Shown here piece by piece: positions 927-36,814 of a stretch of DNA of 64,000 nucleotides (position 1 is its first letter; every line of letters starts with the position of its first letter). A program made the translations under genes and the position numbers. The stretch spans positions 21,431,001-21,495,000 of the forward strand of contig CM073325.1 in the NCBI GenBank assembly GCA_037043015.1, read 5' to 3'. The notes beneath the pieces were generated by a model. That model saw only the letters and a program-made list of their open reading frames with translations. It searched no databases and was not told the origin of the DNA. The stretch is from Bryum argenteum (taxonomy: Eukaryota > Streptophyta > Bryopsida > Bryales > Bryaceae).

Positions 927-937
927 CTTATTTAGAC
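927..937. repeat. left target-site duplication of element 1
   Basis: CTTATTTAGAC occurs here and again, exact and in the same orientation, at 36815-36825. It lies about 12 bp outside the GTGCGAGC box of the left end, and the right copy lies at the matching place. Eleven bases is within the 9-11 bp range known for MULE insertions. Confidence 0.75.
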
Positions 938-1260
938 AGGATTGCAGCTGTGCGAGCAGTGAGCAGAAACCAATGAGCAGTGAGCAGACTTTTCCGCTCA
1001 TTGAGCAGATTTTTAATGACTATTTTAACATTTGGAAGTCATCAAAGTGTATCCAAATTTTGTAAAAAAAGATAAAGAAGTGGTGTGCAATTCCGTGGAA
1101 TGTCCTAAACCCGTGGAAATGGAGGTCAAAATCATCTTGATAAAAATGTGTTGCAAACAGAAATTTAGTACCTCGTGGCACCGGCAAGTAGTTCAGGTCA
1201 TTTGGAAATTGTATTGGAGGGACGAAATTAGGGCTGACGTTATCAATCAGACGAGATTTT
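938..1260 (+). repeat. left terminal region of element 1
   Basis: The end starts with about 12 bp, then GTGCGAGC at 950-957, then diverged GTGAGCAG/TGAGCAG heptamers to about 1012. Inside come CCGTGG/CCCGTGG boxes near 1095-1120 and the segment ATTAGGGCTGACGTTATCA near 1228. The last segment recurs near 38665 and, inverted, near 48603 in element 2, which ties the two elements to one family. Confidence 0.65.
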
Positions 1261-2452
1261 TAGTTTAGGGTCTAGGGGTTGCGAGGCGTGCTCTCTTGAA
1301 TTGGCCACGCTGCCGGATGTGTATATCCGACATTGTGTGCTGCTGCTACTTTGTGCCATCAATACGCTGTCCTAGGGCATATTTTCTTTGAGAGTAAACC
1401 AGACTGAAATATGAACACGGAGACAATCAAGCACTTGGTATGAACTGGTAGAGTGTAACGATGATCAAGAACAGTAGGGGCGACGGTTGTGGCGTAAGAG
1501 TGGGAATGTGTGAACTTTATGTGGAGTTCAGGGATGAGGCGATTTGGACAAAGGTAAGTCAAATATTCTGCTCATTTGTGAATGTTCATTTGAGTCTTGA
1601 GTTTTTTTTCATGGAATTTTGTCCTGTGGACAGGTCCACAAAAGATGCAAGTTATGGAGCCCGTATCGTGGGCTTACAAGAAGTCGGCTTGTTCCATGTA
1701 AGCAATCGAACGCAGATAGAAACAGCTTAAATGTCGAGAAGATGCATTGTCACCTCACAATCAATTGAAATGTGAACGAGTATTGTTTGGGGGAGAGTAA
1801 TCTAAAAAATAGTGGTAGAAATCTGATGTACATGCATAAGATTGGAGGATCGATGTAAGGAATTATTTATGGTACTCAAAGAAAAATGCTATTGTAAGGT
1901 AGTCGTCAGCCACATTGATGTCAGTCGCCCTTGAAGCATGCATCGAGGTGACAGCCACCTCTCCCATGCTCATCTCCGACATGTCAATGTCGCACATATG
2001 GCGTACCATAGGATGGTCAATAGCATGTGCCGGCTTTCAGTTTCGTGGGGTGGTTGTTGCGGCTCTCATTATGTGGTCAATGTTGAAAACTTGACTCTAG
2101 ATTACAGTCAACACGAATTGGGGGACTCATTGGTTTGCGTTGTATATGTTGGAAATCCAGCATAACTAGATGTGCTCGAATTTGAACTGGACTTCTTCAC
2201 ATTCTTCGTGTACTAAGTTGGTCGAAATTTAGGAGAGGTATGAAGTCGCAAGCGCAGTTGCTTCTCGACATAGAATCTGTTAGGACTGTAGCGAGCACAC
2301 TAAATATCTTGTGAGGGATGGTCAATTGTCGACGTAGGTCGTAGAACCTTTAAACTCGCACTTGGGATATTGGATGGTTGATTGACGATGTGTTTGTAGC
2401 AGTCCGGCTCACTTAGAAGCTCGGGTTGTGTTTGCAGGTACTTATTTTGACA
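1261..2452. other. spacer before the first ADD gene
   Basis: Small open frames occur but none shows a recognisable motif or conserved splice pattern. A TTTGCAG acceptor at about 2430-2436 lies just before the ADD gene start, so a 5' untranslated exon may lie in this stretch. Confidence 0.35.
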
Positions 2453-2958
2453 ATGGCGGAGAGGACACTAACATGCACAGCTTGTGGGGAAGAAATAGAA
2501 AGTTTGGACAACCTAGATTTTCATGCGGAACTCGACGTTGTAATGTGTGTTGTGTGCGTGCCATTTTTGGAGCATCGGATTGAGAGGAGCAACGACGTTC
2601 AGAAGCATGTAAGTACGTCTTGTGGTTCACATAAAACGGTGGTGAGGTTTGAGTTCAATTAAGTCTGAGGTGCTTATGATTTGGAATTGGTTATGGGTAG
2701 GCGAAAGATGTCGATACGTGCTATTGGTGTGGAAAGACAGACGATCTCATTGTGTGCAGTTGCTGCGAATTATGTTGGTGCGCGACGTGCATCATACGTA
2801 ATTATGGTGACGACATAATCGAAGAAGTGATAGCGGACGGAGACATCTGCTGGACTTGTTTCGTATGCTTTCCCGAACATATGCATGGTCACTTAGATGA
2901 GGCGGCATTCCAAAAGGGATATATTGCGCTTGATCAAACGGATAGTAGTACGTCATGA
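2453..2958 (+). CDS. small ADD/PHD-type zinc-finger protein 1
   Basis: Two exons, 2453-2608 and 2701-2958, join in phase 0 (donor CAT|GTAAGT, acceptor GGGTAG) to give about 137 residues. Exon 1 holds a CxxC...CxxC GATA-like finger (CTACGEEI, CVVC). Exon 2 holds a PHD-like set (CYWCG, CSCCELCWCATCI, CWTCFVC). The order of a GATA-like finger, then a PHD finger with RNxGDD spacing, is that of ADD domains (ATRX, DNMT3), which in known cases read unmodified histone H3 tails. No catalytic domain is attached. It lies between the left end of element 1 and gene A and is related to the genes at 33494-34077 and 35434-35934. The ADD assignment rests on cysteine spacing only. Confidence 0.6.
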
Positions 2959-3509
2959 AGCTTTGAAAGAAGGTGGTAAAGTTCTGTGAAACGAATTTAG
3001 ACAATGTGGTTGACGACTCTAAGCAATGAAAATGACTGGTAATGATTGAGTACGGCCTTGTGCGAATAAGATGATCTGAATGTTTTGAGGTTTGGGTATA
3101 GTGCGGTTAAAACGTGATCGGAAACTTGTTGGAATACAATGAGACATGGCATATTTGAACACAAGAAAGCTTGTTTTGAATATGGTGATGATGTTTAAAT
3201 TACATGTCGAGTGCTGATGTCTAAATTACATCCAGCGCTGCCTCGTTCGACAATGCTAGAATAATACGATTTATGACATCGAGTGCATGCTTCTCAACTT
3301 CCTCGTGCAGTGCCTTTCTTGTAGAAATAGAGAGTTTAGACCTTCTTCGTAGCAGTGGTAGTAGTGCGCTGTCACACGGAAAAGGTGAGTTTAATAACAG
3401 TAGAACTATATACATTTGGATTCTTTAGTCTCAAGCAATGTAGTATGAACTGCGGTATGAGATAAGAAATAACACATAATACTGAATAGTAAACTCAAAA
3501 ACAACATGC
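2959..3509. other. spacer between the ADD gene and gene A
   Basis: The region holds the 3' flanks of two converging genes. A minus-strand frame at 3221-3415 is open and basic and follows an AG, so an extra downstream exon of gene A is possible, but gene A already ends in a stop at 3510 that matches its paralogues. Confidence 0.3.
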
Positions 3510-6500
3510 TCAGGAGTCTGACTCCGAGGCGCTCAAGTCCAAGTAGCGCTTCACCCCCGGATGATACCGAGGCCATCGCGGAACAATATCCGGGGAGGAG
3601 TCTGAGGAAACTATGGCGTAAGCCTCTGCTAGGCCTTCTGCGTACGAGGGAAGACTAAAAGATACTGGAGGACTAATTTGAAGCGACGAGAGTCTATCAA
3701 AGACACTCACTAAACTGCACAAAAAAGCACACAAGATGATTAGAATAATGAAAGAAGGACTTATCAAATTCAAAAAACAATCAGACAGTTGAGTGGCACT
3801 CACAAAATCCATCACGATGTTCAGCACGGATTGGAGAGTCGTCGCCATTGCCTGCGTTTGATGGAATCGGTGTGTTTGGTGGTGGCAGCGCTAGGACGGT
3901 CAGTGGTAATAGAACCTCAGTGTAAATCTCGCGGTCCCCCTCCAGAGCGAGAATGTTGCGGTTGAGAGACCGCGCTGCCTGTACTGATGCGCCTGCGGTT
4001 AGATCAGAGTCAAAGTTAGAATAAGTCATTGAATTCAAAGAATGACACTTAGTAAGAAAGATGCAAATTAGAAAATGCAAGCGATCACTTACCAGTCGAA
4101 GCTGCGAAGTCCAATACTAAGCCTCGCTCTGGACACATTCCGTAAATCAAGGGCTTGAAGAAAAGCTCAATGCGCTGTTTCGGACCCCGCCATGGCTTGC
4201 CATCTGACTTCCTCCGAAGAATACTCTGCTCGTCGATGGCGTTGAAGAGCATGTCTTGCTTGTTCAGGTCAAGGGCTGGTGTGAATGGATTGAGTTTGAT
4301 GTCAAGCGGGATAGGCTGACGACGACAAGAAGATGGCAGCGCCCGCACCATAACGACGGCCTTGGAGATATAGGTCTGCACATCATAGAAAATCACAGGA
4401 TATGATATAGTACTGACACACGGAAAGCAATTAATAATAAAAAGTCAATCATCCCTTTAATACAAACTTGCAACAAGAATTCCTATTGCTCGGCAAATGA
4501 GCATTAGGGCCGGCAGTGCCAAATGAAGTGTCAACGCCAGCAAGAAAACGGCAGTCTTGGTGTCGCGACTGCTCATTGCCAAAACCTGCGCTGAAATGGT
4601 CAGCTCAAGGTGGGACTCGAGAGCCTTCAGGAGAGCCGGCACTTCCCCTTGGAACAGCCAATGCTGAACCACGTGATGCCGCATTCCAAACTGTTGTTGG
4701 AAGTGGGTGACCCCCGCAGCCGACACGGCAGCACACATCGCAACCCACAGCACAGCATAGAAGTTGCAACGGCGACCTTAAGATAGCGCGGACATCGGTC
4801 ACACTTCTAGCTGCCGGGGCTGCGGCCTTCAAGATAGCGTTGCGACCGGCAGAGGCTCAAAGCGAGGTGGTGAATCTGTTGACACAAATGATGCCCGGCC
4901 TCACGTGGCTTCAGGGCTTCCGTCACTTCAGTGCTGTCGCAACTACAATACCGACGGACTGGAGGGGCTTCGATTCGGCCTGTTAATGACCTTCGAGGCA
5001 CGGCGGGGTCATCACGTGGACTGCCGTCACTGCAATTGTAACGCCGCCACCGGCAGAGTCTGTCTGGGTTATGACGAACGATGCCCAGGCTCACTGTTTT
5101 TGAGTGCTGCCACGGCGGCCGGGGCTTCAATGAATCCTGCCGGGGCTGTCGGGACTCAAGCTGCCGAGGCTTCACCTCCGACTGACTGAATGGGGTTGAG
5201 GACTCAAGCTATGCCGGGGCTTCAGGAAATCCGAGGTCGGGACTCAAGCTATGCCGGGGCTTCAGGGGGAACTGCCGGCGATGACAAAGCAACGCCGACG
5301 CCGGCAGAGGGTCAAGACGCAGTGGTGTGTCGATCAAAACGAACGCTAACGGGGAGCCGGGGTTAAGGGTTGCCGAGGCTGCCGGGGCATCAAGGCCGCC
5401 GGGGCTGGCGGGACAGCGCTCCCGGGGCTGCACGCCCCATGGAATGGGGGAGCACCAGGACGGCCTGCGATTTCAAACCATACGGACTGGAGGTGGTTCG
5501 GGAAGGCCTACGAATCGTCTACGCAGTGCCGGACCTTCGGGGGGGAATGCCGGCACTTCCACAGCAACGCCGCCACCGGCAGAGGGTCACTACGAGGCTG
5601 TTCGTCAGTCATCACGAACGATGACGGGTTGCCGGGGCTTCAGGGCTGTCGAGGCTTGAGAGTATTCTCGGCAAGTCCCAAAACTCGAACAAACAGGTTT
5701 CAATCGGAGCCCAGCTTCCGCCGATTCTTGATTCCTGTTTCAGTACAAGGACCTACACATTCATAACAGAAATAGAAAGCAAACTAATTGAGGAAATTAC
5801 CGATCGTGCAGGGTTCAGTGGGCTGCAAAGAGGAAGCGAGTTGAGGATGTTCCACTCGAGCGCAATCTTGAGGTTGAAGTTTGAAGTGAACGCCTCGATC
5901 TTCTTACGCACGGCATACGATTCCGGGTAAAAGATTACAATTGCCCCATCGTCATGCAGGTATCTGTACGCGAACTCGGCGATTGTCTTCAAAAACGTTT
6001 CTTGATCAGCATTCCAGCGAGGAATCTGGTGCTCGGGATCGGAGACTCCTGGAACACGTAGTCCATCTGGGTACTCCGCTAGCATCAAATCGATGCCAGG
6101 CCGACCGACTTCGGGTACGCCTTTGAAATACAAGCGGCGACCCACGGAAACCTGGGATTCAAAGATATTAGTAAACACCAAGATTTCATTCGAATACAAG
6201 TATCAGATCTCAACAAGGAAGAGTAAGTTTACCTCGGAGAGGAAGCTCTTTGCAACCTCGAACTCCTCAGGGAAGGAGCCTGTCATCTTCTTCAGATCCC
6301 ACCATCGCACTAACGTGTTGTTGATTATTTTTACGCGAGCGCCAGTAGGAGCCCCTATTGGATGAATATCAAGCATCATCCCACGAATAGCAGAAGGAAG
6401 CATGGAACTCTCGGCTGCAATCATGGTGTTGGTGGCGTTTGAGGACTTCCCTGAAACATGAGCAAGGCGAGCTTTCTTGTGCAGCGAACCACGTTCATTG

Positions 6501-9500
6501 TGAGCAGGACTGCTCTCAAAGTGGTTCTCAATGAGCAAATCGACGTCAACAGGGAACTTGGCCTGTCTTTCATCTCCCAGAGCAGCGTCCTTCGGAATGG
6601 CTTGATTATCGTCGTCAACCTTCGCATCCTGAGGGGCGGCAGCAGGTGCGGACACCACGGGAGGACGGAGTTTGCGCTTACGCCGACTCGTGGTGGCCTG
6701 ACTGTCGTCAAGATTGATGACGGCCTTAAACTTCATAAGCTCGGGCTCAAGCTTGGAAATGAGGTCCTCTTCGAACTCGGGGAACATACCCTTGGGCATG
6801 TCCATGTACCATCCACATGGTACATAGTGGTGCTTCTTGTACTCCTTAAGCTGTGCAGCAGTATACATACACTTCTCATCGCTCGTATTCGTGTAGTTGA
6901 CAAAACTCGTAGGAGACTTCGAAATAGCCTTCGCCGGGAGGAGAACGTGCTTCACATACCGGTAAAGGACTCTCGAAGAGGCCTTTTTGAAATTTGGCTG
7001 CTTCTCAGGAGGGTTGTTCTTGTGAACGCCCTTTCCTCCCCCTTCCTTGTTCAGCTCCTTGTCTTTGATTGAGAACTCCCTGAAAAATGCGTTTTCCCAT
7101 AACGCGATTCGCATTCTCTCGACATACTCGGTTACGGTGTCGATCGGCTCCTCTGCACCCGGTAGGTTGTAATTAATCTCCTGTCTGCCCATGTCCATCT
7201 CGTCTTCAAAATCTTTGGCAACTGCATTGGATAGCTGCGCACGGCACGTCACAAGAAATGTTAAAGTAAAAACGGCATCAACAAAAGTCCAAACTGAATT
7301 GCAAATGGGTCAAATGCATACCTGAGACCACCACGTCGCCTTGTTCAGGAAATTGAGGTATGTCTGCTCACTGAACCCAACCTTGGGAAACCGCTGATTC
7401 TCGCGGAACTTGGGCGGCTTGTTCCACCGTTCCAACCAAAGCAGCTTCGTGTCGATGTCCATCGCTGAGATTGCAAAATACCACAGTTTCTCTTGGGACA
7501 TCTCAATCTCCCTGAACGTCTCGTAATGCTCCTTGACGAGTTTGAGAAACCTAGGAGTATTGTCGGGGTGGCAAATCGGTAACTGCTTTCTTAACTCGCT
7601 CAATAGCGAAGTTTTCTTCTCTTGCACTCGTTTGTTTACGCATCGTGAATACTTGCTGCTGTAAACTTGCCTGCTTGACAATCACGCCTAAAATCTGAGG
7701 CAGCCTTCGCCGCCTCTTGAGCAAACTCCGTCTGATAAACTTTCCCAAGTAAGTCAAGCAGTTCAATTAACTCCGTTGTCAATCAAATTCAAAGACACGT
7801 ACCTGATACAGGACGTTGCAAAGTGCACTGGCGGTGAGTTTAAACCATGTTGACTTCGTAAGGTTTTTGAGGTTGGATGCTGCTTCTTCCTCCGGTGTTA
7901 TTATCCCTTTGAAGTACGACACATCTTGCCGCCCAATCCTCTGCACCCGGTAGAGTTTGTGCACAAGGTTCAACTGAACATGACTATTCTCCACTCGCCT
8001 GCACATGGATCAAATTAGATCAAAATATAAGGATTTTGCGAGTAAACTATCACAACCAGGTCGTGGTCGAATACACACGCAACATAATTAGCGCGAGCAA
8101 GATGAAAATAATGTAGGGTATGTGACTTACCATTTAATTTCGTGGAGCGCGGTCAACGCGGTCATGTTGTCACCTTTAAGGTCAAGCAAGATGCAATCGA
8201 CCGTGAAATGCCATGATGGATCATGGGATTTCTCTGCGTTGATGTATGGGTACCAAGCCTCCAACCGGTGGTTTCCGTCCCAGACGTGAAACATTTTCCC
8301 TGAAAACTTCTGAAGATCAGGATCAGCTTGCAAAAATTCTTCGAATTCGGCATTTACCTTTACCCAATTAGGGCTCCAGGAGGCGATGGTTTCTGCCGTC
8401 ACGTCCACTGTCTTCACCTTGCCTGGCTCTTTGTTGTCGTTCTCGATCGCCACATAGAAGACTCCTTGACCTTCGACGTAGCCGACATCTCGAAAGTGAT
8501 CCTGGAGTCTGGCTATGTCGGATTTCATCGCTGGTCTTACAACTGGCAGCCCCAACATTCGACAAAGCGGGATACACATCCGCGATTTTTGAACTGGTTG
8601 AAAGCGCAATTGTTGAATTTTAGAGACACTCTTGGCAGCTTCCGAACTGACAAGGTTGTTCACCTCCTTATTGACATCGGCCTCCGAAAGCACGTCAGCA
8701 TCCGCTTGCTCTTCTTCTTCTACCTCGAGGGCTGGGAATTCGTCTGGAGGACATCCTTCCTCCGCAACGTCGGTCCCCTTTGGGACGTTGCCGTCAGCGT
8801 CCTCCATGGCGTCATCACCAACGATACGTCCATCTGCAAGATAACAAGATCAGATTGTTAGAAGTACATATAAGCATATCCATTAGGTGCAAAATGGGGT
8901 CTCGAAAAGGCCGTGTAAGCCTGCCCTTTCTAGGTGAACATCCTGCCCAAATGCGGCACTGTCGCTGGCAGCGGGTGCCAGGATCGCTGCCCGCAGAGTT
9001 AATAGGGCGGTTTAATGGTCTCGAGATGGGGTTGCGGGGTGGGGTCGGTGTGCCTAGTGGCGCCGAGGTGGCTGCCTTGTTTGGTGAACCACGCCTTCTC
9101 GCATTGACTGCCCATGAAGCACGATTCGAAGGAGAGATGACGGGAGATTGGTGTCAACCGTTACAAGATTCAAAGTTTGCTGCCACAACGGGAAGAAGCC
9201 ATGGAGCTCGGTCGACACTAGGTTGGTCTCCCCACCTGGGAATGGGGAGAATAGAAGTTGGGTGCGTAGAATTTGGGTGTTGCAGGACCAACGACCCAAT
9301 TTGCAGGTGGAATTCGAGAGAGTCAAGGGAAATTGTGACAACTAAACCAGTGAGCATGATTGTACAGATACGCGCTGGCAGCAGTCACAAATTTGAGCAG
9401 CAAGCATTCGAAGGGTGTTCTTGCAACACCTACTACCGTGGACTGAAGAGGTTGTCTAAGTGTCGATTTCTCTATGACAAGTTTGGGTCGTGCATTTGTA

Positions 9501-12500: not shown

Positions 12501-15500
12501 AGTGTCAGAGTCAAAGAAAGAGTGCGAGAGCGTGAGGCTCGGCGAGTGTCTAGGTGTGGGTGTGCCGCCACAACTGCTATTCCCGGAGCTTCACTCAACG
12601 ACTGTGCCTATCTGAGGGTCCCATTTTGAGTGACATAGTAAGAGTGCCAGTGCGTGTGTCGCCACAAGTGCCCTCTGCAAGCGTTCCAGCACGGCTTCCA
12701 GGGATCAAGTTCGAGTGTCAGAGAACAATGCAAATGCGAGAGTCCCGTGTGCTTGCGAGTCGCCCCGTGCAGGTGTGCTGCCACAAAGGACCTGCTACGA
12801 TCGTCCCGACCTGATCACGAGTTTCATTGCGAGTGCGACCGATCCGATCATCGAATCTCAAGTCCTGCAGAGATCATTAATCCAAGCTTAGATACTCGAT
12901 TTCACAATGTATAATTATGCGAGAGTGCTAGCATATAACAAAAGTCGAGAGGAAAAATAGCAGTAAATCCGGAGCATTTGCTTACAGGAGAGAAGGCCAG
13001 GATTCGCAGGTGTATGTGTTGTCCCGGCGAGTGCGAGTGTTCGTGCGGGTGTGCCGCCACAACTGGTTTCCCCGGAGCGTCACTCTACGACATTGACTGT
13101 CTGAGGATCCCGGTTCCAGTGTCATAGTATGAGTGCGACTACGAATGTCCCGGATAGTACGAGTGCTCCCTTGCGGGTGTACCGCCACAAGTGGGTCTCC
13201 ACGAGCATCTCACTACTGCTGTGTTAGTGCCAGGGACCAGATCGAATTCTAGAGTCCGATGCAAACGGGAGAGTCCCGGTGTGGTAACAAGTGGCATCGT
13301 TCGGGTGTGCCGCCACGAGAGTCTCAAATAGAGTGAGCCAGTGCAGATTCCCAGATCGAACAGTTTCAGTGCGAGAGGGACCATTTTGCAGCGTGTGTCG
13401 CGCACATCAAATTCTTCGTCCTTCACGTATCGCATATTCAACAATGTATCAGTATGCAACAAGGCAAGCATATTTCGACAGTCGAGAGGTCAGAAAGCAA
13501 ACAAGCCAAAGAACTCGCTTACAGACCATTTGGCCCGGATTCGCAGATCTACTTGATTCTTGATTCGCAGGTCATCTTGATTGGTGCCTGCCCCAGACGA
13601 TCCACCATGAAGGTGCCTGTGCAAGTTACAAGTGTGATTGAGAGAGATGAAGTGCCAGTGACTCGGCGAGTGCCGCCACTCCTGGCCTTTCTCGAGGCTC
13701 TTACGACGAGTGCCTAATGAAAGTCTGCCGCCACTTATGGCCATGCAGAGACCGTACCTTTCATGTGTGTGGGTGCTGGAGTAGGTGTGCCGGCGCCTAA
13801 GGTGTGTATGTTCCAGCCGGCATGTGAATTTTTTGATTTTTAACGGGCGCCACAAGTCCATCGGCTCAAAATCACTCTCGAATGGCGCACAGAAGCCTGA
13901 TGCCGGCACTACGGACTGGTCTGCCGGCATCCAGCGAGTCTTGCCGCTACCGGCACCCCTTCAGATGACCCCCCGGTCGGTGGGTGTGCCGGCACTTATA
14001 GGGAGGCTGCCGCTGCCGGCGCCCGAAGAGGTGAGCCGGCGTAGAGTGACTCGATCACTCTGCTGTGGGTGTGCCGGCACTTAGTGGATGGCTGCCGCTG
14101 CCGGCGCCCGAAGAGGTGGGCCGGCGTGGGGGCGATGTTTACAGGCTGCTGTGTGGGTGTGCCGCGACTTTTGTGCTGGAAATCCATGTGTATGAAGCTT
14201 GACTGCGATTTCAAACCACATAGCATGTCAGTCCCACGAGAGTGCTTAGGCTATCTTGTGACAACTTCACCATCCCACCTCTTCGCAAGCTTTCAACCAG
14301 CACACCCAGCCATGAAACTAGCCGGGTAATCCAAACCTTCTCTGCATTCTATCCGTTACAAATCAACTCAGCAATGCACGTACCTGAGGGGGATAACCAA
14401 GCCATGCAGCTCACGAGTGCTGGTGTGCCGCCACGAATTGTCACACACGATCGGTCCATCAATATTGTCGCAGTACAATTTCCCGAGTACGAGTGTCAGT
14501 GCGAATTTCCATGTGTGTTTGCGTGCGTCCTTGTGCTGGTGTGCCGCCATGAATGACATTTGACGAGCGTCCCACCACGAGTGTCGCAGTGCGGGGGAGT
14601 CGGGACGAGTGGCCCGCAATGATAATCCCAATGTGTATGTGCCGCCACGAAGGACCTGCCCAGAGTGTCTCACCGAGACTGTTCAACTGCGACAGTCCCA
14701 GTACTACGGGTCCAACTTCGAGATTTCTATATTGAATACGAATGTACTCAGACGAGTTTCACAGCGCGACTGTGGGTGTGCCGCGACTTGTTTGCTGGAA
14801 ACAACGATGTGTATGAAGCTTGACTGCGATTTCAAACCACACAGCATGTCAGTCCCATGAGAGCGTGTTACCCGACTGACGTCATCGGGTAACCACGGCG
14901 GCCAAAGCGGGAGCAGCAGCGGCAACGGGGATAGCAGTACTTTTCGGTGGAGGTAGCAGCAGTTAACTGCAGATGCCTCGGCAGTCGATAAGAGGCACCG
15001 TTCGGGTTCAGGGATATCCGCGGCAGCCGTAGTATAAAAGGTTGTAGAAAATAGGAGAAGGGGACTCGTTTTTTGGGGTAGTCATCGTAGAAACATAGTT
15101 GCGCTATACACTGAGCACACACACTCACTTGTATTCCGATCTGATGTTTGAATAAAACAGGCCAAGAGCCGAAACCTTCCTCTCCCATATCTGTACTGTG
15201 AAGCTCTCTCTTTTTCTCTCTCACTCACTCGATCTGCTATCAAGGAATATCGTGGTCAGCTTCGATCAGAACCCTAACACATCTGCAAGACTGTGTGACT
15301 TTTGGGTGTCTGACTGTGTGGAGATATCCACGGTTATCATAAGTTAGCATGGACAGATACCCGAGCCCACGGCACAGCCTCGGAGGCCTTCAGTAGCCCG
15401 GAGTTTCGAGACTTGTGCATTACCACGCTATTGACCGCTGGGTTAACACCTCTCCACCTCGGTATCAGTATTAACCGTGGTTGCCATGGCAGGGCCTCTA

Positions 15501-18500
15501 TCTTCCACGACCGTCCCCTGAAGTCAACTCTTGCCCTCTTGGGTAGACTGAGCAAGGCTCAGCCCCCCCCTCTTTTCGGCTATCTAAAAGTACAGAAGGA
15601 TATCTTCGGCATCCGAGCTCGTAAAGCATTCCATCCTTCGTTAACCAAGGATAACATTTTGGCGACCATGCTGGGGATGGAATGTTGAGTCGGCCCGAAG
15701 AACAGGAAATAAAAACACCAAACAGAACACAATGCCTCCACGAAAAGCAACCGAAAAAGCTACGGAACCTGAGGAGGCCGCACCCCAAGATGACCAAGAT
15801 ACCACGAGGGAATTGCTCCAGTGGATGAAACAACAAATGACAGATTTGGCGGCAAAAAACGATGCCACAAATGCCAAGATTGAGTTACTAAACTCACAGT
15901 ATCTCCAAGGGGTGGGAACCTCTACAACTGCTCCACCCATCGTCAACCTGGCCGGACCATCACAGCTACCGCCAATTGACCCAGCCATGACCGCTTCTAT
16001 GGCATCCAGAGAACGAGAACGACTAATCAAGTTGCCAAAGATACCCTACCCAGTCTTTGACGACTCCGGTGACCCTGATTGGCACGTACGCAGATTTAAG
16101 GTGATAGCACGGACCAACGGTGTCACCAGCACCGAAGACTTACAGAATATCTTCGGAACCACACTCCAAGGTAATCACATCAATTGGTACATCGATTTTG
16201 AGACCGAGCATTTGCTACCAATATGGGAAGAAATGGAGCGTAGCTTTTTGCAGAAATTCCGAAAACTAAAGACAAGCTCGGCAATACTTCGAGCTTTAGG
16301 CAACATGCAGCAAGAAAGAAATGAACCTGTCGACAAGTTTTATGACAGATTCAAGCAGCTGGCCGACAAACTCAGCCAACGGCCTGAAGAAGACTACCTA
16401 TGTGAATGGTTCAAAAAGGGCTTGCTACCGTGGATACAACAAGGCATCATTATCCGCGGTGTCAAAACATTACAGGACATACTCACAGCTGCCAATGACA
16501 TCAGTAGGGAATTTAGCGTCATCGATAAAACACAGGCACCATTGCTTCCACTGCCAACACCAAGAATGCCTAGCCGGGCAGCAACGACACCATGTGCTAC
16601 CTGCGGCAAACTCCATGCAGGGCGCTGTTGGTTTGCAAATGCGCCCGTCAGGACGGAAGATACTCGGCCCACACGAACTAAGGCAGCGTCCATGTATCCA
16701 GAGGAAGTCGACGTGGACGCCTTTCAGCCTGGCAGAAACGATGGGTGTTGGGAATGCGGATCCCCACACCACAGACGAAGCCAATGCCCTGTGTTGAGAC
16801 AGCGTTGGGCCAACACCCGTGCTACCGCGGACACCAAAACTCACCCCGGAAGCACCGACGCTAATGTAGGCAACAGAAGGGGGGGAGTTACACTCACCGA
16901 AGTCCACGGCACTAACGTGGCCACCATAAGCACCGCCGCGGTAACCACAAGATCTAAAGCTACCTCAGATGAAGCAGATAAACATGTCATAGAACATCGC
17001 AAGCCATTCGCAGGACAACATTGGGAACGACTGAACAATCTGCGAACACAAATTCAAACCGACCTTGAAACAGCGGTGGTCCCAGATCTGCAACAGGTAT
17101 TAGAAAAAACCGATGTGCGCATCACATTAGCTGATCTGTTGAAAATCAGCCCGGAATTGCAAACATACCTGCAAAATATGCACAAAATCTCGACCACGGC
17201 CACGACAACCGTGGAAATTAATGCGACAACCATAGACACCGATGCCGCCGTCATACATGTCCGATTAGGACAACACCAGTTAACCAATGTATTAGTTGAT
17301 GGAGGCTCCGGAGTCAACGTTATCAGCGATCACCTAAGACAACAGTTGGGACTACCCCACCCCATGACAGCACAGTTCGTCTTGAGAATGGCAAATGATG
17401 CCCCGGTGACCCCATTAGGGATACTTTCCACCGTGGCCATCACAACTCACGGTATCTCTACACCGGCAACCTTCGTCGTTATCGACATGCCGGACAGCAG
17501 CAATTTCCCTATGATTTTGGGCCGACCTTGGTTAAGAGACATGAATGCAATTCATGACTGGGCCAGAAATCAGATCAGAATTCGAAGATACGGGAAAACG
17601 ATGATCATTCCCGTGGACAGCTGTATCACTCGAGAAAGAGTCAAACAGATCAGGAATCAGGCTGGCACGGCCTGGGGGAAAGGTCTCACGCACGAGCAAG
17701 AAGCTTTGGTGTTCCACGCCGACCCTGATCTAATCCCACTGGCAGAGATCCACTTCGCCACCGTAGTTTCAGAAGAAGATACCCTCAATATCCCACCCAG
17801 GTTCACCACCGAGGTATCCGAAGAAGTCATCATTGATAAAACCCCGGCAACCGAAGCTTTAAGTAAACAAATAGTAACTGGATGGACACATGGGTCCACG
17901 GAGCAGGTACAGTTGGTCAACCTTGGCACCAAAAACGAACCAAAGAATGTCAAGATCAACGCCGACGCACCGCATGATATCAAACAAGCGACTATAGCGC
18001 TCTTCAAAGAATACCGCGATATTTTTGCCTGGTCGCATGAAGACTTAAAGGGGATACCAAAGACTATAGCCGAGCACACCATAGATCTGGTACCAAATGC
18101 TCACCCAGTGCAACAACGCAGATACCGCATGAACCCGAACTATGCTGTCAAGGTCAAAGCAGAGCTAGAAAAGCTGCTTGAGGCCAAGTTTATATCACCG
18201 GTAGACTCGGCACCATGGCTGTCTCCGATGGTCATCATTCCCAAAAAGAATGGCGCCTTACGAATCTGTGTGGATTTTCGTAAACTTAATGCGGCAACCA
18301 AAAAGGATCACTACCCTTTACCATACATGGAAGAAATTATTGACGAAGTAGCGGGACATGAGATGTATTCATTTCTGGATTGTTTTTCCGGCTACTATCA
18401 AGTCGCAATGGCAGAGCAAGACAAGAGCAAAACCGCGTTTTCCACGGAGTGGGGTCCCTACCAATTCGAGAGAATGCCTTTTGGAGCAAAAAACGCACCC

Positions 18501-21500: not shown

Positions 21501-24500
21501 GGGCCTTACCCGACCGGCACCGTGGATGGCGTTGAAGTACAGATATCCGCGGCATATCTGTATCACCAATATGGGTGGGACGGCACCGGCATCACACAGT
21601 GGACAGAGGACTGTGGCTTTCAAAAGCCCGACATAGCACGGAGGATACCGGGGTTGGAGCCAAGGGAAAAGGATATGACACATACGCAGTAGGAGCAATG
21701 CTCAAGGAACCCTGGTTTTCACGCATCCGCGGCATCATCAGTCAGATATACTGTCGGTGCAATTGCAATTACATTTTGCCCGCACAGTTGGAACTGCTTT
21801 TCCTCGCAGATGCAGGAGCCAAGGTGAACTGGGGGATGCTTTTCGAGGATCACCTGGGTTTGGAGCTGCAAAATCATCAGAGGTTCACGGAGTACTCCAG
21901 CCCCATTGGTCCATTCTTGTCCACCTACATCATGCGCTATCTTCAGTATCACAAGATAAACGGTAAATTGCCACCTATGGCAACTTTCGTGGAAATCCAA
22001 CGCCGCAAGTTACCATCACCCATGAAAGCCATCAGGGACACCGCGGCACCAAACCCGAACAAGAGACAGCGAGCAGATGACGAGGGCCCCTCCACCCACG
22101 CAGGCACACTCGCAGGTCAACTCGATGCACAAGCATCGGCCATGGCAGCGTGTGTGGATAAAGTGCTGCGACACTTACAAGCTACCGAGGGACAGCAGAG
22201 GCAGCTACAGGAGGAGAAGGACCGTCACTCCAAAGCCACACAGGACCTACACACGCAATTGCACAAAAAGGAGGAGGAATTAGGTCAAGCAAACAAGAGG
22301 GTAGAAGAGGCTAACCGCGCTACCCAGATGCTGCAGAGTCAGCTAGCAGCAAAACAGATCGACATTCAGTCGATGACATCCACGCTTGAAGGAGTCACCA
22401 AAGAAAGAGACAGTGCGAAGGAACATCTGACATCCCTGTTAGCCCAGAACAAGGAACTGCGGCAGCAGTGCCGGAATTTGATTGATACTAATCCTTCGAA
22501 TCCTGAGGCACAAAGTCTGGAGGAGAGGCGCAAAACTTTGGTTATCGAGGAGGAAAACTTTGAAGCCAATAAGCAGGCTTGGGTCCACGATGCCGCGGCA
22601 GTATTGGGAGAGATATTGTTCAGGGCAATCCAACGAGAGCCTCCGCAGACAGACGACATCGCAGTCAACATGGTAGCAGCCTGCATCGAGGAGACACTCA
22701 CAAAATTACAGCTGAACGCGGATTACGAGGGAGAATGGCAAGAGTCCAGCCATGAAGACACCAATCTGCCCACGGATACCACGGTCACCGAGCAACATCA
22801 GCCTCCACAGCAGGTGACCGCGGCACCAGACTTCCCCGAGATAGTGGCCCAGGATGACACCGCAGGTACCGAGCAGGAGCATCAGCAAGATCAAGGTATG
22901 GACATACCGGAGGAGCAGTTACAGGATCGCGTGCACATCCCGGAACACCTTACCGACACCGAGCAGACACCACAGGCATCGCCGAGGGTAGCCGAGGAGA
23001 AGGAGCAATCACCAGCACACCCGCCGACATCCACAACGACGTCCACGGCACAGCCATCAACCATGGTAACCCCTAAGATTTCATTTGCATCTCACCGACA
23101 GGCGTTGATACAGTTATCAGATGATAACACATGGCATGTGGAACCTGAGAATGACAGCGATGCCGATGAGGAGTACCAGGATGCGCACGATGAAGTTCAA
23201 AAGTACTTCAACAACAACCCGGATTTGGCCCAGCGTTTTGCAGATCACACGGCTAGCGACGTGCAGTGTCCAGGTTGTAACAAAATGCTGGGCAAAACGG
23301 TCCACGATATCCATGAACATGCCAACACAATTCGAAACCGTCGTTTGCTTCACAGGGGCATTGCCGCGGCCATCCGATCGTTGTACGATGACCAGCCTCC
23401 ACCACGCCGACAACAACAATGGCCACGGGAACAGACTCGTCCCGACCGGCGACCAGCGGAGCGACGTGCCCGGCACTGAGCAATCCGGGACGGATTGCGC
23501 TCTCACAGGGAGGGCAAAATGTTACCCGACTGACGTCATCGGGTAACCACGGCGGCCAAAGCGGGAGCAGCAGCGGCAACGGGGATAGCAGTACTTTTCG
23601 GTGGAGGTAGCAGCAGTTAACTGCAGATGCCTCGGCAGTCGATAAGAGGCACCGTTCGGGTTCAGGGATATCCGCGGCAGCCGTAGTATAAAAGGTTGTA
23701 GAAAATAGGAGAAGGGGACTCGTTTTTTGGGGTAGTCATCGTAGAAACATAGTTGCGCTATACACTGAGCACACACACTCACTTGTATTCCGATCTGATG
23801 TTTGAATAAAACAGGCCAAGAGCCGAAACCTTCCTCTCCCATATCTGTACTGTGAAGCTCTCTCTTTTTCTCTCTCACTCACTCGATCTGCTATCAAGGA
23901 ATATCGTGGTCAGCTTCGATCAGAACCCTAACACATCTGCAAGACTGTGTGACTTTTGGGTGTCTGACTGTGTGGAGATATCCACGGTTATCATAAGTTA
24001 GCATGGACAGATACCCGAGCCCACGGCACAGCCTCGGAGGCCTTCAGTAGCCCGGAGTTTCGAGACTTGTGCATTACCACGCTATTGACCGCTGGGTTAA
24101 CACCTCTCCACCTCGGTATCAGTATTAACCGTGGTTGCCATGGCAGGGCCTCTATCTTCCACGACCGTCCCCTGAAGTCAACTCTTGCCCTCTTGGGTAG
24201 ACTGAGCAAGGCTCAGCCCCCCCCTCTTTTCGGCTATCTAAAAGTACAGAAGGATATCTTCGGCATCCGAGCTCGTAAAGCATTCCATCCTTCGTTAACC
24301 CAGGATAACAGAGCGCTTAGGCTATCTTGTGACAACTTCACCATCCCACCTCTTCGCAAGCTTCCAGCTAGCACACTCAGCCATCAAACAAGCCAGTTAC
24401 TCCAAACCTTCTCTGCATTCTATCCGTTGCTAATAAACTCAGCCATGCACTTACCTGAGGGGGATAACCAAGCCATGCAGCTCTTGAGTGCTGGTGTGCC

Positions 24501-28854: not shown

Positions 28855-31800
28855 ATGGCAACGATTCGAGTAGATGCTGGGCGAGCCCCATTACGTGTAC
28901 TACCGCAATCTGATGGTCGCATTGTCGTGACTGCTAGAATGTTGGCTGCAAAGTTCAATTTGGGACTAGATTCGATTTTCCTAGAGGAAGAAGTCATGGA
29001 TGATGTAGGCAAGTTGTCTTACAGTGTGCACATGGAGCCCATCGTTGAGAAAGATGTATACTGAATATTACAATCCTCGCAGTATCGTGTTCAGGGTGCT
29101 GTCATCCAATCTCATCCGGTAGTTACAACGTCCGTGTCGGAGTGCGAGGTCGTCCCGTCATGTGCAACGATGACCCCTATTATCAAGCTAGATGATAGTG
29201 ATGTTGAGTCTTCAAAAGAGACGGTTGTTCCAGCTTCCCAGGATTCTCACCTACTAAAGACTAATCGGACTATGTCGGTAACACATTCTCCTTCTAAGTC
29301 CGAGAGTTTAAGCAAGAAGCCTCCGCGTCCACCATCAATCAAGGAATCTGTCAGTGCTGTCACATGTATTCGGAATCTGCAGTTCAGAAAGGGGGCCAAG
29401 AGCGAACTCTGTAGGTTAGATCTAAGTATGTATCAGTACTCATTTGTTCAGTTCTTGCCGCCCCAGTATGACGGCAATGTTATTTTCGAGTTTCCGCCCC
29501 CACCTCTGGACGCCAAGACAAACTCTGCGAAGAGACTGTTGGGGATGGACAAGCAATACGACGGTCACACATGGTGCCATTTGCTGACTCGAAATATTCA
29601 AAACGACCATGGTCTTACGTTCAGCACAGCTTCTTGTGCTGGTCATTTGCGATGTGAGAATCCAGAGTGCGGATTTCTTCACAGGCCCGGGCGAGCGGAC
29701 GAGATAAATGAGAAGTTGTGGGATGGCTTTGCAAAGAAGCCGTTCCTTGGGAAATGCCCAGACTCTGAGTCGACACTGATGTGCGCTATATGCAAGGCAA
29801 AACCGACTTGTATTCTGCAATGCTCTGCTATCATGTATTATGTCACAGGTGATACCAATACAACCAAAGCATGTATCCACATTGGATCCCACAATCACCC
29901 GGTAGGACAAGGTACATGTAGGCAGTCCTTAGAGCTCCGTGACCAATTGTTAAAGGGTGCGCTTGAAAGATCACCGAAGGCCTCACCCTCTGCGATTGCA
30001 CTGTCTGCAAGCACTGAGTTCCTTGGAGATTACCTATTGAAGAAGGATGGCGAGTGTTACCGTAGCCAACGTTGCCAACAGGGTGGTCGCGGCCAAGTCG
30101 GGAGGATAGGCGCCACCGAACGGCAGCATGGACTTCGGGAGCAGCGGCTACTTAAAGAGCGTAGTCAACAGGATAGAGGTCGGTTGTTGTAGTAGCATTG
30201 AGACAGGGATTAGGTGCAAATGCAAATGTACTCTCATTTCCTTATCAATACAAACGGCCATGGCCGATCTTCCTTCCCTATCTACGTATTCTGTTTGGCA
30301 ATGATCAGGAACTCTAACCGATTTTACTTATCTCTCTTGCATAACCGTTGCTCCTTGCCCTCCCTGCACTCCGTCACCTTCGTCTCCCACACAGGCCCTT
30401 GCCGAGACAGAGAGGCTCCCCTCCCGTGTGCTCCACACCGCTCCAGCATTGGACAGCATAAGGCGACATCGGTGACCTTGACACTTCTCTCCTGAGTCTC
30501 AGCCCTTAGCCTCGTCATTCCCCGCCGATTGTCGGTACCTCCTCAGAGGTTCCTACCCCTCCTTGAGGGACTCGCTGCCATCGCTGTCCATTGTTGCTAT
30601 TCTCCCTCCACCCGCTGACTAAAGTCAACAGTGAGTTACTGTGCAGGCCCCCTCCTGCTTCATTAGCCAGTCAACGTTGATTTCCGGTGGCACAGTTAGA
30701 CCCCTGGTGTTTGTTAAACACCAGCTTCCTCCCAGGCCTTGACTCCTCCCAGAACAAAAACAACCTGTTGCCTTCAGACACCCTCCGAACTAAGGTCGAC
30801 TTAAGGTAGTCTCGTAAAGCGCCTCCATACATACCCGGCTAACAGCGAGTCCCAATCATTCTTAACGGAATCTGAAATGCAGGATGTTATGTTCAAGTTC
30901 GAGAGCTTCACAAGTCCCACTATTCGACACAATGTTTCTCACTTCAGAAGGATGGGAAAGAAGGGCATAATCGATGGAGTGTGCGAATTGAGAGGCACCT
31001 CTCGGTGGCCCTATGTGCAGGAGAACAGATTTCCTGGCCAAGGTAGTAAGACCGACAAGGTGTTCTTCTTCAAAATGTCGGAGATTGGACCGGGATCTGG
31101 CGTTGATCTCGTTAAGAGAATGCAACCTGGAGGGGATTTGGAGCATGCATGGGTGATGTTCGATCACATCAAGCGCATCAAACGGTACACAACTTTTGCC
31201 TGCCACGTTTATGACTCAGCGTATCGCAAGGTGATGACGATTGCAATCTGGGATATGATGTCCGAAACCCAAGATGCTCAATCATACCTGTGGAGAGGGA
31301 TCAATGCTGTCATGGCTGAGCACGGGGTTCACAACGTTAATTTCGCGGGATTCATGGCTGACAGCGCGCAGGCTAACTGGAATGCTGTCCGAGAGATCTA
31401 CGGTTCAGGTGATAAAACCGTTCCAATGCCTAATAAGGAACGCTCATGTCTACTACATTGGACTACTTGCATGCAAAGAGCAACAAACTCTTACATTAAG
31501 CCCGAACTTCGAGACGAGCACAAGCGAATCTGTACCCAGTACAAGGACGCGCGCACAGCTGATGAAGCGGAGTCCCGATTCATGGCGATTCGTTCATGGT
31601 GGTCTACGAGTGGAGCAGCAAGTGACTCTGACATTCGTGCGCTAGACAACTGGTTGGCATGGTGGCACTTTCGATATTGGCAGTGGGGCGGATACATGAA
31701 CATGGTATGTTCTATCTTGTTTCATCATTTCTTTTTTAATAATCTGTCATTTCAACGTGACTTTAAATTACCGTCCCGTGTTTCCAGTTCACTTACTCCA

Positions 31801-33274
31801 TATTGTCATCTTCGATTTGATATTGCAGAATCTTACAGAGGAACAAAGGGCGGAGATGCCGATGTGCAACTTGTCAGAGACTGTGCATGCCTCATGGAGC
31901 AAGCAATCTGGCAAAGCTTGTGATAACATTTTCGAAGCTACTATTGAAGACTATTGCCGTGCCTTTGTTCAGTGCACCCGGTACAATGCCTACGACAAAG
32001 GTCGAGGATCGGGTACTGGTCCCACCAAAGAGGAGTTGCGGTTCCGCGCGGCAACTCGCTCTGCTACTACGACTGGTAATTTGAAGTCAGTATATCGGGC
32101 AATGGACCTCATCCCTGGAGCGGAGAAATTTCTTAGTGGAGCCGCATCGTTCGCAGGAGAAGAGATTTTTGGATCCACGAAGCTGAGGCTCGATGCCGAA
32201 CCAGGCTGCGACGACGACTCTCACCGGTTCGACAAGGTCAACTTTTCGCAACCAAAGACAATGAAGACCCGACAACAAGGTACGCCTTCAACTCCCATTC
32301 GGCTCAAAGATAACGGTGACGACGACGATGATGACCATGTTGTAGAGGAGACAACACATGTTCCATCACGACCGGTGGAGCACGTCACGAAGGTTTTGGA
32401 AGAGGACTGCTCACCAAAGATGTGGCACATTCGCCGCCTGTCTTCAGTGGGTTCCCGGATTTGTACCGCCATAATTCCCGACTCCAACAGAAAGTGCAAT
32501 TGTGGGCTTCGAAATGGTGATCCTGCTCCTGCATACCACGGCGTGAAGCATGTCCGCTCTAAGAACAAGAATTATGCACAATTCTTCTATTTTTGTGCAG
32601 ATAATGTCGCAGGGTGCGTAGCGGGGAAGCGCCGGAGGTGGTTCCCTGATTCGCCCTTGGTTCCACGTATCTGGCCAGTATTAAAGGGAACTAACCTCAC
32701 GACGCGCGAGATTTTGACTTTGGAGGATGCAGGATTCCAGCTGCAACAGAGACCACCTATGCCAAGCGAGAGGCAGTTCGGCGATGACATGGCGATTGCC
32801 GCGAGTATTGCAAGCATTCCAGCACCGGAGAAACCCGATAAGTTCCTCAACATACGAAGCTCTCGTCCTTGTCGTCGCAACGCTACAAAGAGGGTGGCAA
32901 CTGAGCAGTTAAACAAGTGGGAATCGGCAATGCTACTCGATGTCCAGCTGACACGGATTATGTTGGTGCCAAGCCCGGGACTCGGCGCCGTCATTGATTT
33001 CATTTCCAAGAAGGGTCCCGATCAAGATGCTCAGAAATACAAGGTCAGCATTGGTACATTTCCTGAGTGTACTTGCCCTAGCTTTACAAGCATGTACGTC
33101 AAGTTCAAGTCGCGTGGATCCTATGCTAATTGCAAGCACCTGTACTACATTTACCGTGTGGTTTGTGGCCTTGATCGTGAGAGAGATCGGTTTGTCCATG
33201 CTCCGACTCTTAGCTTCAACGAGATCAAGCGACTTCTCCTAGGTGGAATTGTCCAATGTGTTCCGCGCACTTGA
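28855..33274 (+). CDS. MULE-like transposase with GRF-like and SWIM zinc fingers
   Basis: Exons 28855-29055 and 29083 to about 30050 join in phase 0; further exons are about 30878-31704 and 31829-33274. The interval 30050-30877 has no clear donor and may be an intron with an insertion. The catalytic core shows HVYDSAYRKVMTIAIWDM and GFMADSAQANWNAV, matching the two Asp blocks of MULE transposases, followed by CLLHWTTCMQRA, like their C/H block. A GRF-like segment has CNCGLRNG...FFYFCAD near 32500. A SWIM finger (CTCPSF...CKHLYYIYR) lies near 33070-33150. An N-terminal Cys/His-rich stretch (CENPECGFLH, CAICKAKPTC) may bind DNA. This is the likely mover of element 1. Integrity of the joined gene is unproven. 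Confidence 0.65.
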
Positions 33275-33493: not shown

Positions 33494-34077
33494 TCACCAA
33501 CGGTTACTATTATCTTCACTACATTCCTCTACGGCATCTTCCCAAATGGATGGTGATAGTGGAGGGTCGTACTTCTTTGCAGTGTCTCGGAACTCTTCCC
33601 ATGTCTTGGTCAATTCGGTGTACGTGCTGTTGTCACAACTGAAGCACTTCCAAATCTCTGCAGAGCGTTGGATCTCTACTAAGTACTCGTCACCTTTGTT
33701 GTTCGATACACAACCAGTACACCACACCTTCGGACAAGCTCCACAGCTAATCATATTGTAGTGATGGTCGAAGCACCAACTGCAGTACTCTTCCTTCCCA
33801 GCCTCATTCTGCCATACACAAGTGGAACACGAATGGCACCCATTGTGAGAGATCATTATATTGAACAGAAACTGTAACATCAGAAAACATGACGTCTACA
33901 ACACATTCCATTCTGTGACATTCCTACCTTAGTCCACTTCTTCTTTGCGTAGTCTGCACGGCATTCACAACAGAGACCAACTGCAAGACGGGGGTGCTGC
34001 TGAAAGGAAATCTGAAACCTAGTATCCCCACAAGCGGAACAATCGTAGGTTGGACCACTGAGGGTGACCGAAGCCAT
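33494..34077 (-). CDS. small ADD/PHD-type zinc-finger protein 2
   Basis: Two exons, 34077-33928 and 33808-33494, join in phase 0 (donor AAG|GTAGGA, acceptor TATGGCAG). The first codes MASVTLSG... with CSACG and GLCCECR; the second codes CSWC, CGACPKVWCTGCV, NNKGDEY and CFSCD. This is the GATA-like plus PHD-like order of an ADD domain. An acidic tail follows (VEECSEDNSN). HPRLAVGLC here and HPRLGVGIC in the gene at 35434 show that the two are close relatives. It lies between the transposase and the right end of element 1. Confidence 0.65.
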
Positions 34078-34254
34078 ACTAAAGAATCCCAGCGTTCTAG
34101 CACCAAGAGCACACAAAAATGAACATTCCGTGGCCACTCTATATACTTATGTAATATGATCTCTCAACCACTCCTTTGTCAGACAATATCTACTTGTCAG
34201 TAGATCATAATCTCCCACGAAGATTTCTAGAATTTTCAAGTGCACTACGTCCAA

Positions 34255-35433: not shown

Positions 35434-35934
35434 CTAGTCGTAGTTGGAATCATTGTCAGAATCACTGCTGTTGCGATCACCAGCTTCTGAAGTGAATTCT
35501 AGGAAATCCTCCCAAATCGTCTGCAGAGGCACTATCTCATACTTGTTGCAGCTGAAGCACCCCCAATTTTTGCCCGTCATGTCCTTCAGGTAGTCGTCTC
35601 CCTTGTTCCGTGCGATACACGCTGCACACCACACCTTGTTACAATAATCACATGGGATCACAAACTGAATTCCCCCACACCAATTGCATTGCTCATCATC
35701 GTACTGAGCGTTCTTCGTGAATACAACGTCGTCCAACACAAGTTTGCACGAAATGCATATGCCAACACCGAGACGAGGATGCTCCAACAAACAAGCACGG
35801 ATTTTTTTCTCCCTACAGGCAGTGCAAGAATACAAATACAAGGGATCGAAATCGGCCGAATGATCCAGAACAGCAAGAGTAAGAATTTTCGAAGTGTGAG
35901 CTTGTCGGTAGTCTGTATAACTTGAAAAATTCAC
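35434..35934 (-). CDS. small ADD/PHD-type zinc-finger protein 3
   Basis: A single open exon of about 166 codons holds CTAC, HPRLGVGICISCK (GATA-like part), then CNWCGG, IPCDYCNKVWCAACIAR, NKGDDYL and CFSCN (PHD-like part), and an acidic Ser/Asp tail. The PHD core resembles the CDxCxxxFCxxCI pattern of DNMT3/ATRX ADD domains. No ATG precedes the fingers in this exon, so an upstream exon or a missed start is likely to the right of 35934. Function is inferred only from the fold pattern: possible histone H3 tail reading. Confidence 0.6.
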   Translation of the reverse strand: MNFSSYTDYRQAHTSKILTLAVLDHSADFDPLYLYSCTACREKKIRACLLEHPRLGVGICISCKLVLDDVVFTKNAQYDDEQCNWCGGIQFVIPCDYCNKVWCAACIARNKGDDYLKDMTGKNWGCFSCNKYEIVPLQTIWEDFLEFTSEAGDRNSSDSDNDSNYD

Positions 35935-36009
35935 GCAGTGCCCTCCACTGTCATGCAGCCCTCAAAATCAGGCTTGGCCTAAAAGGGTCGATAAGCAAAC
36001 AGCTGATTC

Positions 36010-36515
36010 AGGGCCGATTTACACCTAGGGGCCGGGCCAAGTTTTCTTGGGGCCAATTGCTTGAAATTTCAGCCCGTTTTTGGGTTGGGGCCGGCCTCAA
36101 GTCCTCATTATAATATGATTAGAATGGGGGCTGATTTTCCCATATGTAATGGCCTTCGGGCCAAGAAGCCAGGCCAATTCAATAAAGTCCAAAAAAATTC
36201 AGCACTTCTCAAAAAATGGACGGATTTGATTTGGTGAAAAAAAATTGTTAAAAAAAAAAAAAGGTTTTTTTAGACAAATCTGACATTGGCCCCAAGGCCA
36301 AGAATTGGCTTTCCATTCTTGGTGCACCCAATTCACCGAGCTCGGGCCATGTCAGAGCTTGCATTTCTTGATTAAAAAAATTCTGCCACGAAATTGGCCC
36401 GGCCTTTAGGTGTAAGGGGGTTCAGCCTAATTTTTGCCTTTCGGCCAATCACGACTGAGGATTTCAGCCCTCAAACGGGCTAAATTGGCCCGTCCCCTAG
36501 GTGTAAATCGACCCT
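36010..36515. mobile_element. 506-bp MITE
   Basis: The ends are inverted copies about 29 bp long (AGGGCCGATTTACACCTAGG at the left, the complement at the right, two mismatches). The interior is rich in AATTGGCCCC-type words. No coding capacity. No clear target duplication. It is nested near the right end of element 1. Confidence 0.6.
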
Positions 36516-36814
36516 CATAGAGGCAAATTGCCACGGTTGTAGGGTTTGGATTGGAATTTAAACCTTAAAACTGTGGCGTTTTGACAATTGGTCTAAATTC
36601 CAATTCCAATTCACCACGGTTGTAGGGTCTAAATTGTTATGTACCGGCACCGTTCCCACGGTTATAGGGGTACACTCATACAAATTTTGTTCAAATAAAA
36701 TCATTTTATATTCACTTTTGGACAAGAATATTCCTTCAAAATCTGCTCAATGAGCGTAAAAATCTGCTCACTGCTCACCGCTCACCGCTCACCGCTCGCA
36801 CCGTAATCACATTG
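36516..36814 (-). repeat. right terminal region of element 1
   Basis: Inverted relative to the left end. CCACGGTT boxes occur near 36530, 36613 and 36657, then GCTCAATGAGCG, CTGCTCACTG, CACCGCT heptamers to about 36797, GCTCGCAC, and about 15 bp to the tip. Confidence 0.65.

Follow-up and report, generated by a model that had tools for sequence, protein, structure and literature searches.

Fusions in which a ParB domain is followed by a permuted beta-class methylase (ParB-N6_N4_Mtase) occur in bacteria and phages, and Lanisha, a CMCT element, was described from a moss. Both accessory genes on Mutator-like elements (MULEs) and epigenetic enzymes on mobile elements are already known. According to excerpts of the respective papers, MULEs generate target site duplications of 8-11 bp (PMC6446971) and CMCT elements duplications of 2-5 bp (PMC12730594), SET genes are carried by MULE-Phytophthora_1 and HarbingerS and TET/JBP genes by fungal transposons (PMC6446971, PMC12730594), and some retroelements encode DNA methyltransferases, either cytosine DNMT or Dam-like (PMC5890265). 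In VANDAL elements, again as excerpted, the VANC proteins remove silencing, and their targets are often tandem repeats in non-coding DNA, which vary from one related element to another (PMC5735166). Here, we describe an element of the moss Bryum argenteum that carries a transposase gene, a gene fusing a ParB domain to a DNA methyltransferase, and three genes for ADD-type zinc fingers. It lies in a window of 64,000 nucleotides, the whole stretch analysed (C5:21431001-21495000 of a 258.8-Mb assembly), and represents a family of giant DNA transposons, most likely Mutator-like. A preliminary description of the window had already proposed a MULE-like transposon with this cargo.

The element spans positions 937-36814 of the window (Table 1). 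Its terminal inverted repeats, about 88 bp long and imperfect (63/75 identical in the aligned part), both contain GTGCGAGC and GTGAGC-type heptamers, as first described, and these ends recur as borders throughout the family. Among the 40 matches listed for each end, out of 262 candidates for the left and 244 for the right, so that the counts are lower bounds, those other than the window itself start within one base of 937 in 32 of 39 cases and stop at 36813-36816 in 30 of 39; both ends are sharp family borders. Some of the listed left and right ends were paired by place, giving 21 pairs, nine of which were compared at full length: the window, seven other whole elements, and the copy at C6:3930180 (the C6 copy). 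The window element and the seven others begin with CAGGATTGCAG and end with CCGTAATCACATTG, with a 10-bp duplication that is exact in seven of the eight and agrees at 9 of 10 bases in the eighth. In the 13 further pairs, the duplication is exact in nine, matches at 9 of 10 bases in one, is exact after a 1-bp shift in one, and is exact in another once the right end is re-paired with a left end 10.5 kb on (C2); the last pair, C1:40377903/40420915, the two ends of which may belong to different copies, has no matching duplication. Overall, the duplication is exact in 17 pairs, near in three and absent in one, and among 400 mismatched (swapped) end pairs none shared 9 or more bases, the maximum being 6. 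The family comparison shifts the first base of the element from 938, as originally placed, to 937, and reduces the duplication from the proposed 11 bp to 10, the eleventh base (C) matching by chance.

Sites that lack the insertion agree with these borders. The left flank of the window element is a repeat found at 97-99% identity in at least 39 other places, and all six paralogues of this repeat that were fetched read through a single CTTATTTAGA with a gap-free junction, which is the empty site that the preliminary description had suggested looking for. An independent case is provided by the element e11, which interrupts a coding exon of the transposase of a diverged relative: when its flanks are joined minus one copy of the duplication, the result is an unbroken 227-residue frame that aligns gap-free with two public homologues at 77% identity. 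A second insertion into a relative was noted at e16 (C1:35660976-35683783), which is flanked by pieces of a diverged transposase gene. The repeat around the window insertion (637-936 and 36825-37124) is extremely GC-rich in its right part, with CGGTCG-type motifs.

Shared borders, 10-bp duplications and empty sites mark the element as one mobile unit carrying the stated cargo, a conclusion that we consider hardly open to doubt. Its gene order, ADD1 (+), ParB-methyltransferase (-), transposase (+), ADD2 (-), ADD3 (-), is the same in the window, e17, e8 and the C6 copy, bearing out the expectation that further copies would share it. The 36 kb originally given as the size of the unit is not the native length, being inflated by a nested Ty3/Gypsy retrotransposon, whose long terminal repeats (LTRs) are identical at 790 of 791 positions and which is bounded by the 5-bp duplication GAGCG, and by a 790-bp insertion labelled solo-LTR-like from its ends and duplication only. 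Without these two insertions, the window copy measures about 25.6 kb, and relatives with transposase and ParB-methylase measure 22.8 (e16), 23.1 (e8), 23.7 (e17) and 25.3 kb (C6 copy); the native length is about 23-26 kb. Within the nested retrotransposon, a second long open frame of 647 aa with a weak coiled-coil match follows the polyprotein (21536-23479).

Four of the nine fully compared elements form a non-autonomous subfamily. These elements, namely e2, e7, e11 (all three 14.2-14.9 kb) and the 22.1-kb e13, which contains an insertion, have the common ends, a truncated ADD1, a broken ADD3 and a methylase remnant, without transposase and ParB; the longest pieces of e7 are 92-97% identical to each of the other three. 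Ends occurring alone elsewhere, without shared cargo, had been named as the finding that would speak against a single unit; only these four copies come near to it, and they keep remnants of the cargo. The non-coding middle of the elements contains tandem repeats, with units of 481 bp in e8 and 191 bp in e7. In the 14-kb subfamily, arrays of the 191-bp unit were seen in both orientations (member L014, 4875-7244 and 7813-8268).

The transposase is most likely of the Mutator/MULE kind, as suggested by a structural model with an RNase-H-like DDE fold (residues 46-275 were judged, the rest being of low confidence), the best fold match of which is ISCth4, which we take to be IS256/Mutator kin. Together with the 10-bp duplications, this agrees with the MULE-like assignment of the preliminary description. 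The Pfam MULE domain PF10551 matches none of 47 transposase homologues at E up to 1, a SWIM match (E 0.76) is below cut-off, the C/H pattern having been recognised by eye, and a sequence search of the PDB with a transposase profile gave three matches at E 0.18-1.5, none of them meaningful. Searches of viral contigs with the distant homologue P0109, the ParB alignment and the transposase alignment found no relatives.

The ParB-methyltransferase fusion and the three ADD genes likewise stand as first described. In the fusion, the ParB half matches ParB structures in Foldseek and has a predicted ParB-type fold. The methylase half is, from its motif order, a predicted permuted beta-class N6/N4 enzyme: motif I (FxGxG-like) is well kept and lies in exons after motif IV. 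ADD3 matches the ADD domain of ATRX (2lbm) at E 6.6e-13 over the zinc fingers, including the DEQC stretch, which in ATRX presumably contacts the histone H3 tail, and the ATRX-like C2C2 and PHD zinc pattern of the ADD domain (ATRX/DNMT3/DNMT3L) is present. The window ADD1 and ADD2 are 35% and 37% identical to ADD3 (E 1e-11 and 3e-23) and, on this similarity, are classed as its paralogues; Pfam ADD_ATRX gives 0.00067 for ADD1 exon 1 and 0.023 for ADD3, both under the cut-off.

Comparison of element copies by the Nei-Gojobori method yielded ratios of nonsynonymous to synonymous divergence (dN/dS) below 1 for all five genes, with 1.46, 1.69 and 0.61 in a non-coding control. Between the window and e17, dN/dS is 0.10 for ParB, zero for methylase exon 2 (13 synonymous changes only), 0.025 and 0.030 on either side of the frameshift in exon 3, 0.13 for exon 4, 0.07 for exon 5 and 0.08 for exons 6-7; between e17 and e8, exons 1-5 give 0.15, 0, 0.02, 0.26 and 0.24. 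Values are 0.05-0.27 for the three large transposase exons and 0.08-0.22 for ADD1, whereas counts are small for ADD2, exon 1 of which is changeless in two of three comparisons. These ratios indicate that the cargo genes are under purifying selection. The elements are mosaics: synonymous divergence between the window and e17 is uneven, falling from about 0.4 for ParB to 0.1 for the transposase and 0 for exon 1 of ADD2, and e16 combines low identity in ParB (54%) and exon 4 (44%) with higher identity in methylase exons 5-7 (86, 76 and 68%) and transposase pieces (82-98%). The ParB half of e16 is a diverged module.

The cargo is abundant in the genome. The ParB exon has 141 matches (137 of 1085 candidates scored) in at least 136 places, and ADD3 has 150 (of 301 candidates), many of both with open frames. 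The linkage analysis used 136 ParB, 93 ADD3-like and 36 ADD2-like places. Five second fragments of ParB matches were set aside, as were 21 ADD matches for being second fragments, short or weak, roughly half of which occupied separate places. At 31 of the 136 ParB places, ADD2 or ADD3 is found within 45 kb with strand and side as expected, compared with one on the same strand at the wrong side and seven and one on the opposite strand; the 43 best ParB matches include 27 that are ADD-linked. At the two weaker ParB loci that were fetched, a related transposase lies about 7 kb away (58% and 61% identity in the N-terminal part), one locus having every queried methylase piece and the other motif IV only. 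Family-like ends were looked for at both loci and none were found, nor was one shared element demonstrated there. The ParB-methylase may thus have accompanied this clade of transposases for a long time. Contig C1 (44.1 of 258.8 Mb) holds 76 of the 136 ParB and 53 of the 93 ADD3 places, compared with 23 and 16 expected by length, many with stop codons; C1 is perhaps a poorly recombining (sex) chromosome. A ParB homologue of Ceratodon purpureus (P0127; 47% identity, covering 61% of the ParB exon used as query) sits on the U chromosome, an observation to be set beside the enrichment on C1.

That evolution has tended to keep the cargo suggests an element that controls how its host marks or silences it. 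In the reading we favour, the cargo genes act jointly on the element's own chromatin, amounting to element-encoded epigenetic self-control, for which we estimate a probability of roughly 0.45. The element would be moved by its own DDE transposase, deletion derivatives that lack the transposase gene presumably being mobilised in trans. The ADD proteins would recognise, on copies of the element, what state the H3 tail is in, the ParB domain would bring the methyltransferase to element DNA, possibly at the non-coding tandem repeats or the end heptamers, and the methyltransferase would write a base mark or compete with host silencing there, keeping the transposase gene expressed. DNA methylation, histone binding, targeting and anti-silencing are all predicted activities of the cargo. 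The preliminary description had likewise suggested an element that marks or reads chromatin, perhaps to protect itself or to choose its targets; homology and selection are the basis for such putative roles. We favour self-control because selection, association and repeats are VANDAL-like and because transposon-borne methylases, SET and TET/JBP genes are known elsewhere.

Several observations speak against this interpretation. The best Foldseek match of the ParB half has an E of 0.011, with none at 0.001 or below, and this half has no Pfam or NCBIfam match. The methylase half scores 24.8 bits against Pfam PF01555, just under the cut-off of 26.7 (E 2.5e-5), and its motif IV, rather than [DNS]PP[YFW], is EYPD in the window, e8 and e17, DYPD in e16 and at the C9 locus, and DVPT at the C4 locus, being likewise non-canonical in P0109; base methylation may therefore be lost or altered. 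Constraint is only moderate on ADD2 exon 2 (dN/dS 0.22-0.43) and on ADD3 (0.29-0.37, against transposase-bearing copies), and an ADD partner was detected at only four of the 93 weaker ParB places. The cargo is not all-or-none, given that e16 keeps the transposase and all the other genes but has no ADD3, and the non-autonomous copies have spread without intact cargo, which is therefore not needed in cis. Finally, an intact copy was not demonstrated among those examined: the window copy has its transposase gene split by an insertion and a 1-bp frameshift in methylase exon 3, e17 has an altered splice donor after exon 6 of the ParB-methyltransferase gene, the transposase exons of e17, e8 and e16, as well as exon 2 of ADD2 in e17, contain frameshifting gaps or stops, and in the C6 copy the reading frame changes within the transposase exon bearing the catalytic E.

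A more specific form of self-control, which we offer tentatively and think doubtful as a whole, is a DNA transposon clade, probably of mosses, with a complete epigenetic kit of its own, in which a ParB-guided methyltransferase whose active-site motif, [DE]YPD, would be new, would write an uncommon base mark on element DNA, ADD proteins would read H3 on those copies, and the ParB half would be swapped between subfamilies as a specificity module, as e16 might illustrate. Such a family would possess a heritable pair of writer and reader that does not depend on host silencing.

Two other roles for the methyltransferase seem to us somewhat less probable still, and about equally so. In the first, it would time or gate transposition by methylating the heptamer-rich ends, with the transposase acting only on one methylation state and the ADD proteins choosing when or where, much as Dam methylation gates Tn10. 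The ends do carry arrays of one heptamer, a related transposase lies some 7 kb from the ParB-methylase at both divergent loci, and all five transposase-bearing copies among the nine fully compared also have ParB-methylase exons (e8 seemingly without exons 6-7, in a region with a 100-N assembly gap). However, the methylase-less copies e2, e7, e11 and e13 spread well, which supply in trans would explain too.

In the second, the fusion protein would not methylate at all, the [DE]YPD form being a scaffold that binds DNA and S-adenosylmethionine and displaces host silencing in the manner of VANC, which causes methylation to be lost although it is not itself a demethylase. Motif IV is non-canonical in the window, e8, e17, e16, both divergent loci and P0109, and its exon is nonetheless strongly constrained (dN/dS 0.07 between the window and e17, 0.24 between e17 and e8). 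Yet the protein may still be catalytic, since motif I is well preserved and the position of the DPPY aspartate is taken by an acidic residue.

We consider it unlikely that the ADD proteins mainly steer integration to a given H3 state, with protection from silencing secondary. Such steering would fit the resemblance of ADD3 to the ATRX ADD domain, the three paralogous ADD genes in one element, and the excess of ParB places on C1, but this excess is equally explained by retention in a poorly recombining chromosome. Moreover, the two elements found inside related transposase genes, among eight with fetched flanks, represent nested insertion with no clear targeting, and no position of the 18 tabulated duplications holds one base more than 9 times. 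MULEs do capture host genes (excerpt of PMC6431247), but that the cargo is passenger DNA taken from the host in the way of Pack-MULEs, and without function for the element, is very improbable given multi-exon genes in a shared order, dN/dS below 1 between copies, and ParB and ADD matches that each occupy more than 100 places, many of them with an open frame.

If the cargo works, plants would harbour selfish elements that bring along both a DNA writer and a histone reader, and the evasion or use of silencing by transposons would become directly testable. Also of interest are the unusual active site of the methyltransferase and what may be a natural exchange of modules between the DNA-recognition and catalytic halves. 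Outside the element, the window contains a RING-H2 finger open frame (62090-63124).

Table 1. Features of the element and its insertions, in window coordinates.
Feature	Position	Strand	Details
Left target site duplication copy	927..936		10 bp, CTTATTTAGA
Left terminal inverted repeat	937..1024	+	starts CAGGATTGCAG; GTGCGAGC and GTGAGC motifs
ADD1, small ADD-type zinc-finger gene	2453..2958	+	exons 2453-2608, 2704-2958
ParB-methyltransferase gene	3511..8831	-	exons predicted from alignment and splice motifs
ParB-methyltransferase exons, approximate	8831-8131 (ParB domain), 7998-7803, 7731-7322 (1-bp frameshift), 7234-6233, 6151-5801	-	
ParB-methyltransferase later exons	4375-4093, 3992-3800, probable last near 3511-3722	-	
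Young nested Ty3/Gypsy LTR retrotransposon, not a native part	14866..24310	+	LTRs 14866-15656, 23520-24310; flanking GAGCG repeats
DDE transposase gene, Mutator-like	28855..33274	+	exons to 30054, 30845-31704 (first two D), 31832-33271 (E, SWIM-like C/H pattern)
Solo-LTR-like insertion inside the transposase gene	30055..30844		TG..CA ends; 5-bp duplication GCGAG
ADD2 gene	33497..34077	-	exons 34077-33928, 33811-33497
ADD3 gene, ATRX-like ADD domain	35437..35961	-	
Right terminal inverted repeat	36727..36814	-	tandem GTGAGCG-type heptamers at 36766-36797
Right target site duplication copy	36815..36824		10 bp, CTTATTTAGA

Our searches of open-licence PMC papers turned up no MULE of about 25 kb that unites a transposase, a ParB-methyltransferase and three ADD proteins. 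With MULEs in general, the element shares 10-bp duplications, inverted ends and an RNase-H-like DDE transposase, but it differs in its native size of 23-26 kb, its five genes and the lack of PF10551 matches among the 47 homologues. It is not a Pack-MULE, which carries only gene fragments and relies on transposase in trans, having its own transposase gene and constrained multi-exon cargo genes. Lanisha has CA..TG termini like those seen here, but a CMCT identity was rejected on the duplication, 10 bp as opposed to 2-5 bp. The likeness to VANDAL elements lies in a MULE with an extra gene and non-coding tandem repeats; VANC acts on the silencing of its own element, as the cargo may do here, whereas the extra genes of the present element encode a ParB-methyltransferase and ADD proteins. 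The DNA transposons with SET or TET/JBP genes also carry epigenetic enzymes, but other ones and in other hosts, and the present element joins writer-like to reader-like genes. DNMT- and Dam-bearing retrotransposons, too, are mobile elements encoding DNA methyltransferases, but they are retroelements, and no ParB fusion or ADD genes are named for them in the excerpt of PMC5890265. The domain order of the fusion gene is that of the bacterial and phage ParB-N6_N4_Mtase proteins, in contrast to which the gene described here is eukaryotic, has seven or eight exons and a [DE]YPD motif IV, and resides inside a transposon.

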